A DNA stretch of 64,000 nt from Comamonadaceae bacterium (GTDB taxonomy: Bacteria; Pseudomonadota; Gammaproteobacteria; Burkholderiales; Burkholderiaceae_C), in the NCBI GenBank assembly GCA_947452785.1, contig CANGDZ010000011.1, positions 1 to 64,000 on the forward strand, read 5' to 3'. The notes below the pieces were generated by a model. The model searched no databases. It had not been told where the DNA came from and saw only the letters and a list, made by a program, of their open reading frames with translations. The stretch's first letter is position 1, and every line of letters starts with the position of its first letter. Below are positions 1-11,642 of this stretch, one piece after another. The position numbers and the translations under genes were made by a program.

Positions 1-137
1 CCCACCATGTAAAAGGAAGCATGTGCAAAATTAAGCACACCCATCATGCTGAAAATCAAAGTCAATCCGGAACTGAGCATGAAGAGCAACAGCCCGTAAC
101 TAAGGCCATTGAGCATGGAGATGATGAAAAACTCCAT
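1..137 (-). CDS. LivH-type branched-chain amino acid ABC permease (N-terminal fragment)
   Basis: Only the first 45 codons are inside the window; the rest lies beyond base 1. The start ATG is at 137-135. The peptide begins MEFFIISMLNGLSYGLLLF and continues with a hydrophobic stretch containing SGLTLIFSMMGVLNFAHA, the typical first membrane segment of LivH/BraD permeases (the GLTLIF and LNFAHG-like motif). It would form part of the inner-membrane channel of a HAAT-type importer. It follows the binding-protein gene ending at 278, with a hairpin between them, so the two probably serve one transporter. Family assignment is firm despite the short length; the substrate is unknown. Confidence 0.85.
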   Translation of the reverse strand, partial: MEFFIISMLNGLSYGLLLFMLSSGLTLIFSMMGVLNFAHASFYMV

Positions 138-6258: not shown

Positions 6259-7032
6259 ATGAAAAAAACCCTGTTGAGCGTGGCCTTGCTGGCCGCCGTG
6301 AGCTTGCCTGTCCTGGCGCAAAACATTGCTGTGGTCAACGGCAAGCCAGTGCCCACGTCCCGCGTTGAAGCACTGAAACAGCAAGTCGAGCGATCAGGCC
6401 GCCCGGTTACCCCTGAAATGATGGGCCAGATCAAAGAAGAGTTGATCGCCCGCGAAGTGTTCATTCAAGAAGCCCGTAAGCGCGGCTTGGACGCTTCTGA
6501 AGACTACAAAAACCAACTTGAATTGGCTCGCCAGTCGATCTTGATTCGCGAATTGTTTGCCGACTTTCAAAAGAAGAACCCGGTCACCGACGCCGAAGTC
6601 AAGGCTGAATACGACAAATTTGTCGCAGCCAATGGCGGCAAAGAATACCGCGCCCGCCACATCTTGGTGGAAAAAGAAGACGAAGCCTTGGCCCTGATCG
6701 CTCAGATCAAAAAAGGGGGCAGCTTTGAAGATTTGGCCAAGAAGGCCTCTAAAGATCCAGGGTCTGGCGCCAACGGTGGCGATTTGGACTGGGCTAACGC
6801 CGGCAGCTATGTGCCCGAATTTTCTGCGGCGATGATCAAGCTGGACAAAGGTCAGATGACCGAGAATCCAGTCAAAACACAATTTGGCTTCCACATCATT
6901 CGTGTTGACGATGTGCGCGACACCAAGCTGCCTTCATTGGATGAAGTCAAACCTCAAGTCTCGCAACAGTTGCAACAGCAAAAAATTGCCAAGTATCAAG
7001 AGTCGTTGCGCGCCAAGGCCAAGATTCAGTGA
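6259..7032 (+). CDS. Periplasmic peptidyl-prolyl isomerase, PpiC/parvulin type
   Basis: A 257-residue secreted foldase. The signal peptide MKKTLLSVALLAAVSLPVLA ends at the AQN junction. An N-terminal SurA-like helical region (about residues 22-125) precedes a parvulin domain starting at YRARHILVEKEDEA and including FEDLAKKASKDPGSG, GGDLDWANAGSYVPEF and TQFGFHIIRVDD. It probably helps fold outer-membrane proteins, like PpiD or SurA relatives. AGGTTCCCC lies just before the ATG, giving a usable ribosome site. It is the last gene of the selO operon, 50 bases after bolA and followed by a strong terminator. Confidence 0.93.
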   Translation: MKKTLLSVALLAAVSLPVLAQNIAVVNGKPVPTSRVEALKQQVERSGRPVTPEMMGQIKEELIAREVFIQEARKRGLDASEDYKNQLELARQSILIRELFADFQKKNPVTDAEVKAEYDKFVAANGGKEYRARHILVEKEDEALALIAQIKKGGSFEDLAKKASKDPGSGANGGDLDWANAGSYVPEFSAAMIKLDKGQMTENPVKTQFGFHIIRVDDVRDTKLPSLDEVKPQVSQQLQQQKIAKYQESLRAKAKIQ

Positions 7033-7053: not shown

Positions 7054-7079
7054 AACGCGGCTTGGGCCGCGTTTTTTTT
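7054..7079 (+). terminator. Rho-independent terminator of the selO-ppiC operon
   Basis: A perfect 8-bp stem, AACGCGGC / GCCGCGTT, with a four-base TTGG loop, is followed by an eight-T run. It sits 21 bases after the isomerase stop codon. It is the clearest intrinsic terminator in the window. Confidence 0.93.
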
Positions 7080-7126: not shown

Positions 7127-7555
7127 TCAGTCGACCCAGACCCAATCACTCAATCGATAGGGTCCATTGAGTGGGTGCCAAACCGTGGCTTGCGCGGTGC
7201 GCGGCGTGCCGTTGTGCAGCACCTGGAGCTTGAGCTTGAAATTCACCCCTGCCACCACCTGGCGCTGCGCCTCAACCACTTCCTTGTAAAGCGTTCGGCT
7301 GTGCTGCGCCACGGCATAGGCCTGCACCGCAAAACGAGCAGCCTCTTGCACATCATCGGCATTGGATTCCTCTTGTGACCAGCCACCGACGGCCGGGGTC
7401 GAATCCGCGGCGGGTGTGCTCAACGCAGGCACGGGTGTCTCAGGCGCAGGGCCCGAGGTCTTGTCACTGGGCATACAAGCCGTCAGGCTCCAAAGCAAAC
7501 TCGAGACCAGTCCTAAAGCAAGGGTCGAGTCGATGGGGTGCGTTTGAGCAGGCAT
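7127..7555 (-). CDS. Putative lipoprotein with a cystatin-like domain
   Basis: A 142-residue protein with a lipoprotein-type signal (hydrophobic segment to LTAC, lipidated C27), then a Pro/Thr/Ser-rich linker (about 30-56) and a small domain. The domain follows the cystatin pattern in order: VGGW at 56-59 (N-terminal Gly pair), an AARFAV helix motif at 72-77 (compare LARFAV of phytocystatins), QVVAG at 99-103 (the QxVxG inhibitory loop) and VWHPL at 125-129 (the second hairpin tryptophan). Cystatins inhibit papain-like cysteine proteases; that this protein does so is inference. AGGA lies seven bases before the ATG. It begins four bases after the purL stop, so it is probably co-transcribed with purL. 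Confidence 0.75.
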   Translation of the reverse strand: MPAQTHPIDSTLALGLVSSLLWSLTACMPSDKTSGPAPETPVPALSTPAADSTPAVGGWSQEESNADDVQEAARFAVQAYAVAQHSRTLYKEVVEAQRQVVAGVNFKLKLQVLHNGTPRTAQATVWHPLNGPYRLSDWVWVD

Positions 7556-7559
7556 GGTT

Positions 7560-10500
7560 TCATCCTACCCACTTGCGCGCATTTTGCCAAACGCGCAGCC
7601 ATGGGCTGGTGGCGCTGATGTCACCACTGGTCCAACTCATCTGTACGTTGCGAAAAACGCGCTCAGGGTGGGGCATCATGGCAGTGAAGCGCCCGTCGGC
7701 CGTCGTCACTGCCGTCAAGCCACCCGAGCTGCCATTGGGGTTGAAGGGGTACTGTTCAGTGGCCGCTCCCCAGTTGTCGACAAAACGCATGGCGGCCAGG
7801 GCCTGCGCCGAATTGCCGCGGTGTTTGAAGTTGGCATAGCCCTCACCATGTGCGACCGCAATCGGCAAGCGGCTGCCCGCCATGCCTTGCAAGAACAGGC
7901 TGGGGGACTCGAGCACCTCGACCATCGACAGGCGCGCTTCAAAGCGCTCGCTCTGGTTGGTGGTGAAGCGTGGCCAAGCCTCAGCACCCGGAATGATGTC
8001 GGCCAGTTCGGCAAACATCTGGCAGCCGTTGCACACGCCCAGGCCGAAGGTGTCGGTGCGGCCAAAAAAGCCCTTGAATTGATCGGCCAACACCGGATTG
8101 AAAGTGATGCTGCGCGCCCAGCCCATGCCGGCGCCCAGGGTGTCGCCGTAGCTGAAACCGCCGCAGGCCACCAAGCCTTTGAAATCGGCCAAATGGGCGC
8201 GGCCTGATTGCAGATCGGTCATGTGCACATCGTGCGATTCAAAACCCGCTTTGTGAAAGGCATAGGCCATTTCCACATGCGAATTCACACCCTGCTCACG
8301 CAGGATCGCCACCTTGGGCTTAGACAGGTTGAGGAAAGGTGCCGCCACATTGTCCGCCGGCTCAAAGCTCAGATAGACCTGCATACCGGGGTCGGTCGCC
8401 AGACCTGCTGCGGCATGCTCGGCATCGGCGCAAGCGGTGTTGTCACGTTCTCGGGCAATTTTCCAGCTGACGCTGTCCCATACTTGGTGCAGGTCTACGA
8501 GCGGCGCACTGAACACTTCTTTGGCATCTCGCCAAACGCTCAAGGCCCCCTGACCGTGGCCCATGTTGGAGCTGCTCGGACGGGTCTTGCCGATCACATG
8601 GCTGTGCTTGGACAAGCCTTGTTCGCGCAAGACCTGCAACACCGCCTTGCGGTCGCTGCTGCGCACCTGCACCACCACGCCCAACTCTTCGTTGAACAGG
8701 GCTTTGAGGGTTTGTTCATCGCGGCGCGCACTGACCTGACCGGCCCAGTTTTTAGCATCGCCATGGTCCGCGCGGCTGTCGGAGATGCCATCGCCCTCGA
8801 TGACCAACATGTCCACATTGAGGGCCACGCCCACATGACCGGCAAAGGCCATCTCCGCCACTGCGGCCAGCAAGCCGCCGTCACTGCGATCGTGATACGC
8901 CAGCAGCAAGCCTTGTGCGCGCAACAGGTTAATGGCCTTGACCAAATTCACCAGGTCTTGCGGCGCATCCAAGTCGGGCACAAGATCCCCAAATTGATTC
9001 AACACCTGGCCCAAAATGCTGCCGCCCATGCGGTTTTGGCCATGGCCCAAATCGATCAACAGCAAACTGCTGTCCTCAATGTCGGCGTTCAATTGCGGTG
9101 TCAAAGTACCGCGCACATCGGGGAGGCTGGCAAAGGCCGTGATGATCAAGCTGACTGGCGATGTCACTTTGTGGGTTTTAACCTCAGCACCCGAAGCGCC
9201 CAGGGTCTCGGTCCACTGCGTGCGCATCGACAGACTGTCTTTGCCCACGGGGATAGAAATGTCGAGGGCCGGACACAGTTCCATGCCCACAGCCTTGACG
9301 GTCTCATACAGGGCGGCGTCTTCGCCCGGCTCACCGCAAGCGGCCATCCAGTTGGCGGACATCTTCACCCGCGGCAGCTCAATGGGTGCGGCTAGCAAAT
9401 TGGTGATGGCTTCGGCCACAGCCATGCGGCCAGACGCTGCGGCGTTGAGCGAGGCCAACGGCGTGCGCTCGCCCATGCTCATGGCTTCACCAGCGAAGCC
9501 TTGGTAATCGGCCAGGGTCACGGCCACATCGGCCACAGGCACTTGCCAAGGGCCAACCATCTGGTCGCGGTGCGTCATGCCGCCCACGGCGCGGTCGCCG
9601 ATGGTGATCAGAAAGCGCTTGGACGCCACCGTGGGGTGGCTCAGCACGTCGATCACGGCTTGCTGCAAAGAGACACCCGTCAAGTCCATGGCAGGCGACT
9701 GGCGCGTGAGGGTTGTCACATCGCGGTGCATTTTGGGCGGCTTGCCCAGCAGCACGTCCATCGGCATGTTGACCGGCGATTCTTGGCCTTTATCTTCGAG
9801 CACCAACTGGCGCTCTTCGGTGGCCACCCCGATCACTGCAAACGGGCAGCGCTCCCGTTCGCAGAAAGCCTTGAACTGTTGCAGCGATTCCGGTGCGATT
9901 GCCATCACGTAGCGTTCCTGGCTTTCGTTGGACCAAATTTCTTTCGGCGACAAACCAGACTCTTCGAGCTGCACGGCGCGTAAATCAAAGCGCGCGCCCC
10001 GTCCGGCGTCGTTGGTCAACTCGGGAAAAGCGTTGGACAAACCGCCTGCACCCACATCGTGGATCGCCAGGATCGGATTGCCGCTACCGAAGGGGCCTCC
10101 AGCCGCCCCTTGCGCCCAGCAATGGTTGATCACCTCCTGCGCCCGGCGCTCCATCTCGGGGTTGCCGCGCTGCACCGAGTCAAAGTCCAGATTGGCCGCA
10201 TTGGTACCGGTGGCCATGGAACTGGCCGCGCTACCGCCCATGCCGATGCGCATGCCGGGGCCACCTAATTGAATAAGCAAACTGCCCGCAGGGAATTCGA
10301 TTTTTTTCGTCTGCCCCGCATCGATCTGGCCCAGACCGCCCGCGATCATGATTGGCTTGTGGTAACCGCGCACCACGCCATCCACGGTCTGCTCGTATTC
10401 GCGAAAATAACCCAGCAAGTTGGGCCGGCCAAACTCGTTGTTGAACGCTGCGCCACCCAGCGGGCCCTCGGTCATGATTTGCAGTGGGCTGGCAATGTGT

Positions 10501-11588
10501 TCAGGCTTACCGCCGGCTTGGTCGCTTAAACCGCCCCAGAGTTTGGAGACGGTAAAGCCCGACAAACCCGCCTTGGGCTTGGAGCCGCGCCCCGTCGCGC
10601 CCTCGTCGCGGATCTCACCGCCTGCGCCGGTGGAGGCACCCGGGAAAGGTGAAATGGCGGTCGGGTGGTTGTGCGTTTCCACCTTCATCAGCACATGGTG
10701 CAGCGCTTGTTCGGGTTGGTAAGCCGCGCCTTGCGCTGAAGTTCTGGCCACAAAACGCTCAATGGGGTGGCCTTCCATCACCGACGCATTGTCTGAATAC
10801 GCCACCACCGTGTGCTGCGGACTGAGCTGCTCGGTGTTGCGGATCATGCCAAACAGGCTCTTGATCTGGGCCACGCCGTCGATGGTGAACTCGGCGTTGA
10901 AAATTTTGTGGCGACAATGTTCGCTGTTGGCCTGCGCGAACATCATCAACTCCACATCTGTGGGGTTGCGCTTGAGATCCGTGAAGGCATTGACCAGATA
11001 CTCGATCTCGTCATCAGCCAGGGCCAAGCCCCATTCTTTGTTGGCCGCCTCCAAAGCGGCACGGCCACCAATTTGCACATCCACATGCGCCATCGGCGCC
11101 GCTTCCAGCGTTGTGAACAAAGCAGCCGCTTCGCTGCGGCTGGCCATGGCCGATTCGGTCATGCGGTCGTGCAACACCGCAGCCACCTGACCCCATTGCG
11201 CGTGACTGAGTTGGACGGTACCCAGCAGGCCCGATTTCATCGTCAGTCGGTACTCGGTCAGACGCTCGACACGGCGAAGTTCAAAACCGCAGTTGTGCGC
11301 AATGTCGGTGGCCTTGGACGCCCAAGGAGAAACGGTTCCGATGCGCGGGCTGACCACGATCAATGGGCCGTCGCTCTTGCCGGTATAGGGTTCGCCATAG
11401 GTCAATAAAGCACCGAGGTTTTGCTTGTGGGCCTCGTCCAAGGCTGGGGTGCTGGCGACCAGGTGGACAAAACGGGCGCAAATGCCTTGTATTTGCGGTG
11501 AAATCTCAAGCAAGCGAGGCAAAATTTGAGCAATGCGAAAGTCGCTGAGGGCGTTCCCGCCTTCGAAAGTCGTGATGTGCAGGGACAC
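7560..11588 (-). CDS. purL: Phosphoribosylformylglycinamidine synthase (large single-chain PurL)
   Basis: A 1342-residue FGAM synthase, the fourth step of de novo purine synthesis (FGAR, ATP and glutamine to FGAM). It is the long proteobacterial form with N-terminal domain, two ATP-grasp-like AIR synthase halves and a C-terminal class I glutaminase. Motifs are [49 protein letters not shown] and the glutaminase nucleophile in [11 protein letters not shown], with a late HPERVFRN. I place the start at GTG 11588, which gives the usual N-terminus [14 protein letters not shown] and has AAGG seven bases upstream; the frame is open further up, but only with a TTG at 11627. The cystatin-like lipoprotein gene follows directly. 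Confidence 0.97.
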
Positions 11589-11642
11589 GGGGTGGCCTTG
11601 TAAAGAGACAGAAAACCAAAGGTACAAATGATCGCCAGGGCC

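Follow-up and report, generated by a model that had tools for sequence, protein, structure and literature searches.

Beside purL on the reverse strand of the window (by which we mean the whole 64,000-nt stretch of DNA analysed, from a Comamonadaceae bacterium) lies a short gene whose product resembles the cystatins of plants. The locus raises the question of whether a bacterium encodes a genuine cystatin carried on a lipoprotein and, if it does, whose proteases the protein would inhibit. Features of the locus are listed in Table 1.

Table 1. Coordinates of the cystatin gene, its parts and its neighbours in the window
Feature	Position	Strand	Basis or remark
Gene for predicted cystatin-domain lipoprotein, 142 aa	7127..7555	(-)	ATG 4 nt past purL stop
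Predicted signal sequence, residues 1-27, lipobox LTAC, Cys27	7475..7555	(-)	Sequence; motif in 34/34 carriers
Linker, residues 28-56, Pro/Ala/Ser/Thr-rich	7388..7474	(-)	Sequence; residues 1-56 pLDDT <50
Cystatin domain, residues 57-142 (Gly57 to Asp142)	7130..7387	(-)	Pfam, family alignment, predicted structure, structural neighbours
Elements of the domain: GGW 57-59; helix 66-84 with EAARFAV; hairpin 1 QVVAG 99-103; Trp-less hairpin 2 ~129-133			
RBS-like GTAGGA (last two purL codons), purL stop TGA and 4-nt gap AACC	7556..7568	(-)	Sequence reading
purL (phosphoribosylformylglycinamidine synthase), upstream neighbour	7560..11627	(-)	Pfam FGAR-AT domains and GATase_5
Convergent PpiC-type peptidylprolyl isomerase gene, neighbour only, outside the system	6259..7032	(+)	Domain match
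Terminator-like hairpin	7054-7073	(+)	1 found vs 1.3 expected in shuffles

The arrangement suggests that the cystatin gene may be co-transcribed with purL, and the GTAGGA at the end of purL could act as its ribosome-binding site. A promoter-like match (9/12) is present at 7590-7562 (-), where one was found against 0.1 expected in shuffles.

A preliminary description of this DNA had located four cystatin landmarks in the protein, VGGW (residues 56-59), AARFAV (72-77), QVVAG (99-103) and VWHPL (125-129), and had considered their combination unlikely by chance. All four are at these positions, and profile searches agree with the judgement. The Pfam Cystatin model (PF00031) matches the protein with an E-value of 2e-10 and 41.2 bits, against a curated cut-off of 22.2, a score that rules out a chance combination of motifs; the SQAPI model (PF16845) also exceeds its cut-off (E 1.4e-8, 35.4 bits vs 31). 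All rows of our 25-row family alignment match both models at E <= 0.01; two of these rows (L004 and L006) have no start codon at their beginning, and several other starts were chosen by hand. A search of NCBIfam with the same protein returned no family. Among PDB sequences, phmmer ranked potato multicystatin at the top (E 1.4e-15), with the first tick cystatin in sixth place. Plant cystatins led again in a search with the 25-row profile, which gave, for single-domain chains and whole-sequence scores, 48.2 bits to tarocystatin, 38.5 bits to tick mialostatin and ~19 bits to stefin A.

Structure prediction, which the preliminary description had proposed as a check along with the profile search, yielded a single helix (66-84) on an antiparallel sheet (strands 88-100, 103-114, 117-128 and 134-140). 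The AlphaFold2 input consisted of three sequences and the five models disagree, with a mean pLDDT of 69.4 in the best one and 38.9 to 56.5 in the others; in the model used, the ten-residue mean pLDDT is at least 89 from residue 71 onward. The nearest structures to this predicted fold are plant cystatins: Foldseek ranked first 3ima, tarocystatin from a papain complex (E 9.8e-5, TMt 0.85), and third 4n6t, the plant-cystatin scaffold Adhiron (TMt 0.92, rmsd 1.0), while VIA-align gave Z 14.7 for each of 4lzi, 3ima and 4n6t. Next came monellin and latexin (Z about 12-13), which share the fold and do not inhibit cysteine proteases; the fold alone is thus no proof of inhibition. Residues 57-142 contain no Cys, so the domain has no disulfides. 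Taken together, the sequence matches and the predicted fold identify the product of this ORF as a genuine cystatin with its domain at residues 57-142.

Searches of 90 genomes of the window's genus found one copy of the gene in each of 34 (E below 1e-41) and nothing at E <= 0.001 in the other 56; if the count is confined to genomes of >=90% completeness and <=5% contamination, 19 of 56 are carriers. The 25-row profile matched 2 of 200 genomes in a sample of the family (1 of 141 genera), both from the window's genus. In these genome searches at most 47 candidates per genome were scored in the genus and at most 21 in the family sample. With the Pfam Cystatin model, matches were obtained in 3 of 300 genomes (2 of 134 genera) sampled from the order and in 9 of 398 genomes (3 of 212 genera) sampled from the phylum. 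Copies on phages or plasmids were considered and rejected: six pattern matches in viral contigs included none that was confirmed as a relative, and searches of plasmids and of phages gave no match.

Conservation of the motifs among carriers likewise favours the cystatin assignment, so that neither of the outcomes named as refuting it in the preliminary description, a different fold or motifs not kept in close homologues, came about. Gly at position 57 is present in 33 of the 34 carriers (G027 has Gln). The loop of hairpin 1 reads Q[VI]V[AS]G in 31/34 (QVVAG in 28/34) and is altered in the remaining three. A helix motif of the LARFAV type is a signature of phytocystatins; here it takes the form EAARFAV, in every one of the 34 carriers. 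Two C-terminal Trp residues, Trp138 and Trp140 (WxW), are invariant in 24 rows. The gene is under purifying selection: median dN/dS is 0.20 for the 209 of 406 pairs with dS <1.5 among 29 domains of equal length (5 of the 34 were dropped), and the comparison of the window's cystatin with its nearest relative (G377) gives 0.20 as well. One cystatin, that of G059 (L023:1339-1860 (-)), has ~26 extra residues inserted downstream of QVVAG, between the next two strands.

One landmark had been misassigned. The Trp of VWHPL, taken earlier for the Trp of the second hairpin, is Trp126, which sits before hairpin 2, in strand 117-128 of the model. Profile alignments without gaps place it opposite the VW Trp of plant cystatins, whose hairpin-2 Trp comes four residues later. 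The position equivalent to the latter is Asn130 in the window's cystatin and, counted by eye, Asp or Asn in 27/34 carriers. In all 34 carriers the residue after [VI]W is R, H, K or Q, and a script search for Trp in the seven residues after VW or IW found it in none of them; in genome G052 the script took an earlier VW, and the actual hairpin, RNLQNQYT, is likewise without Trp. Judging from these sequences, the hairpin-2 Trp of phytocystatins (PW type) is missing across the cystatin family of the genus.

The lipoprotein signal that the preliminary description had read at the N-terminus stood up in part. Upstream of the domain, a pattern search found a lipobox-like motif ending in Cys in 34/34 carriers, and the residue after this Cys is Asp in none of them. 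Against the signal count the lack of Lys or Arg ahead of the hydrophobic stretch in the window's protein and the absence of a start codon ahead of the motif in genome G050. The lipobox call is a matter of pattern, start codons being uncertain in some rows, and we regard the lipoprotein signal as plausible. The conserved motif also backs the earlier expectation of a protein facing the periplasm or the outside; the predicted lipoprotein would most likely reside in the outer membrane, via lipidated Cys27, and it could face the periplasm rather than the cell surface.

The preliminary description had also drawn attention to the position next to purL. The cystatin gene directly follows purL in nine carriers (G000, the window's own genome, and G377, G047, G015, G386, G043, G008, G052 and G383), but in the other 25 an SNF2-type helicase gene is directly upstream instead, so that a functional meaning of the purL adjacency is not supported, and we rejected a general functional coupling to purL. 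In the three of these genomes whose coordinates were compared (G010, G013 and G053), purL and the cystatin gene are separated by the helicase gene. Upstream neighbours were examined in 32 genomes and taken from coordinates in G383 and G386. Eukaryotic contamination as the source of the gene was rejected as well: purL or the helicase gene adjoins it in 32/32 genomes examined, and the coordinates of G383 and G386 agree.

To follow the history of the gene, a tree was built from the purL sequences of 59 genomes, in which 29 of the 34 carriers are represented, along with 30 of the 56 non-carriers. A purL match was found in 88/90 genomes; many partial ones, and all but four of a divergent group, were excluded from the tree, whose root and several forks depend on these four outgroup rows and on a quick search. 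Carriers alone make up the earliest branches of the subclade, and these are the nine with the cystatin gene directly at purL. Past them presence is patchy: at least 18 changes are needed, of which 7 are forced by well-supported branches. As 122 to 131 of 500 label shuffles fit the tree as well (mean 19.9 changes), presence of the gene is no more clustered on the purL tree than expected by chance. The 23 genomes with 76-78% identity to the window's purL over their longest match include no carrier. In 12 genomes (G359, G382, G055, G374, G028, G026, G363, G372, G370, G048, G381 and G029) the purL match is split in two within one open frame, near query residues 600-625; the coordinates suggest an in-frame insert that may reach ~57 residues.

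A U32 gene is present in 28 non-carriers; of 20 such loci examined, 19 have no cystatin trace at E <= 1e-3, while that of G374 retains a decayed C-terminal remnant (L085:3190-3267, E 2.5e-5) between the helicase and U32 genes. In three non-carrier loci (L069, L072 and L084) the stop codons of helicase and U32 genes touch or nearly so. We take this pattern to mean that the gene was gained no later than the base of the subclade and lost repeatedly afterwards; exchange within the genus by recombination at the locus is possible. Patchy and unclustered presence implies that any benefit of the cystatin is conditional.

Which proteases such a cystatin would meet can be approached through the peptidases of the same genomes. 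Papain-family (C1) peptidases occur in three of the 90 genomes, G000, G043 and G047, all of them cystatin carriers (3/34 carriers vs 0/56 non-carriers). Legumain-family (C13) matches occur in 14 genomes, 11 of them over the cut-off, and only G015 and G018 among these are carriers (2/34). With such counts neither family provides a general self target, and this candidate was rejected; since 31 of the 34 carriers show no C1 peptidase, the target is probably foreign. Ciliates that prey on bacteria express cathepsin genes strongly: among the 31 lysosomal protease genes regulated in Tetrahymena feeding on bacteria, 24 are papain-like, with increases of ~59-fold when the prey is a digestion-resistant Bacillus and ~3.5-fold when it is E. 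coli (PMC7232342). The hypothesis of the preliminary description, which supposed a freshwater bacterium with an inhibitor against proteases of grazers, is a reasonable one in this light. The available parts of that paper mention neither cystatins nor the window's genus.

The best explanation as a whole, to which we assign a probability of about 0.5, is an outer-membrane-anchored cystatin acting against foreign C1 proteases, mainly protist cathepsins. Lipidated Cys27 and a flexible linker of ~30 residues would tether the exported protein to the outer membrane; the N-terminal segment and QVVAG hairpin would plug the active-site cleft of papain-family cysteine proteases, and the Trp-less hairpin 2 would add weaker contacts. 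The enzymes blocked would be those met outside the cell and not its own, which is a less certain step, and the most plausible ones are lysosomal cathepsins in food vacuoles of bacterivorous protists. The effect would be slower digestion or protection of surface proteins. Of the parts of this explanation, inhibition of C1 proteases is predicted with some confidence; protist cathepsins as the main target of the putative inhibitor are a tentative choice, at somewhat less than even odds.

Other targets would suit an envelope protein too. The putative inhibitor might act on cysteine proteases of competing or predatory bacteria, or on free ones in particles and biofilms, instead of protist cathepsins; the predicted envelope location with its universal lipobox-like motif and the lack of a general C1 or C13 self target would fit, and C1 peptidases exist in prokaryotes too (3 of 14 control genomes). 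The directly flanking genes that were read, however, are housekeeping ones, none of which points to competition or immunity, and we rate such a target as rather unlikely. Regulation of, or a guard against, a papain-like peptidase of the cell itself is suggested by the C1 gene in the window's genome (L031:1411-2346 (-), PF00112, E 2.5e-9), whose product has the Cys, His and Asn motifs by eye, and by the fact that each of the three C1-bearing genomes carries the cystatin, so that a self target is conceivable there. Yet most carriers show no such enzyme, the one in the window's genome has no signal peptide evident by eye and would thus be in a different compartment, and in G000, G043 and G047 the two genes are on different contigs (in the window's genome the C1 gene is on G000:C57), all of which makes an own-peptidase target improbable.

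It may also be asked whether the domain inhibits cysteine proteases at all. It could have lost its inhibitory action and serve the cell envelope as a module for binding or structure: EAARFAV is better kept than the inhibitory loop, the C-terminal Trp138 and Trp140 do not vary, non-inhibitors such as monellin and latexin have the same fold, and the hairpin-2 Trp is missing. Since the Gly, QVVAG and the spacing are nevertheless largely kept under purifying selection, we consider loss of inhibition unlikely. Inhibition of aspartic proteases, in the manner of the squash inhibitor SQAPI, would agree with the PF16845 matches of the window's protein and of all alignment rows, but the protein fits the Cystatin model better and retains the QVVAG loop typical of cysteine-protease inhibitors, and SQAPI is itself a derived plant cystatin; an aspartic-protease inhibitor is accordingly a highly improbable reading. 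An anchored inhibitor of foreign C1 proteases remains our preferred explanation. The genus offers a clean system for its study, since carriers have close relatives without the gene, the locus is fixed and the inhibitor loop is conserved, and it makes possible a direct question: are cystatins a bacterial means of countering the digestive proteases of protists?

That bacteria have cystatins has been known since 2009, and the predicted lipoprotein cystatin of this genus is a new lineage. Cystatins and stefins of bacteria were reported by Kordis and Turk, who proposed that they inhibit host proteases; in the parts of that paper available, Betaproteobacteria are listed with stefins and without cystatins, and the word ‘lipoprotein’ does not occur in its main text (PMC2784779). 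A review of 2012 still called for experimental data on bacterial cystatins, according to its accessible portion (PMC3594739), and on the same subject the accessible portion of a further paper (PMC10380794) cites PMC2784779 and adds nothing. In literature coverage that leaves out most subscription papers, PMC2784779 and PMC3594739 were the only works recognised on bacterial cystatins, and no statement was found there that a lipoprotein anchor and a Trp-less hairpin 2 are a wider bacterial trait. Among the best 8 of 129 literature matches, none dealt with protease inhibitors of Limnohabitans or Rhodoferax. The bacterial cystatins of 2009, as far as the available text describes them, likewise have a cystatin domain with QVVxG (PMC2784779).

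Of the matches in the phylum sample, seven lie outside the genus, six of them in a single genus that belongs to a different family of the class. All seven have GG[WF] and QVV[AN]G, six have a lipobox by eye, and none has Trp in hairpin 2 (type FRNLQGEY). The Trp-less cystatin lipoproteins of the other genus are L062-L066 and L068. Compared with this outside group, the profile of the genus family gave a probability of 99.2 and E 2e-19 after removal of L024, a sequence present in both the 25-row and the outside-group alignments; L024 groups with the outside cystatins (48% identity to L062) and is 23% identical to the window's cystatin. A lipoprotein anchor with a Trp-less hairpin 2 may be a wider bacterial trait. 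The two groups also differ: unlike the outside group, the family of the window's genus has the plant-like EAARFAV and the C-terminal WxW, and it leans to plant cystatins in PDB, whereas the outside group scores 37-39 bits with stefin A, above single-domain plant cystatins. That envelope-anchored, Trp-less cystatins constitute one bacterial class of anti-digestion shields against protist food-vacuole cathepsins, present in the window's genus and in divergent form in the other, and gained or lost with grazing pressure, is a doubtful proposition, made slightly less probable by the fact that each group leans to a eukaryotic cystatin type of its own.

Among eukaryotic inhibitors, stefins (type 1 cystatins) are not known to have Trp in hairpin 2. 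In this they are like the cystatin of the window, whose domain is also without disulfides; the differences are the weak stefin A score, far below that of tarocystatin, and the predicted export of the bacterial protein. SQAPI is alike in that its Pfam cut-off is passed, and differs in scoring below Cystatin and in the cysteine-protease loop that the bacterial protein keeps. Phytocystatins (tarocystatin 3ima, potato multicystatin 4lzi and Adhiron 4n6t) are the best PDB matches in both sequence and structure and share the RFAV helix motif and QVVAG; compared with them, the bacterial protein is without the hairpin-2 Trp, has an RQxDG-like hairpin 2 and carries, in addition, a predicted lipoprotein anchor and a linker.
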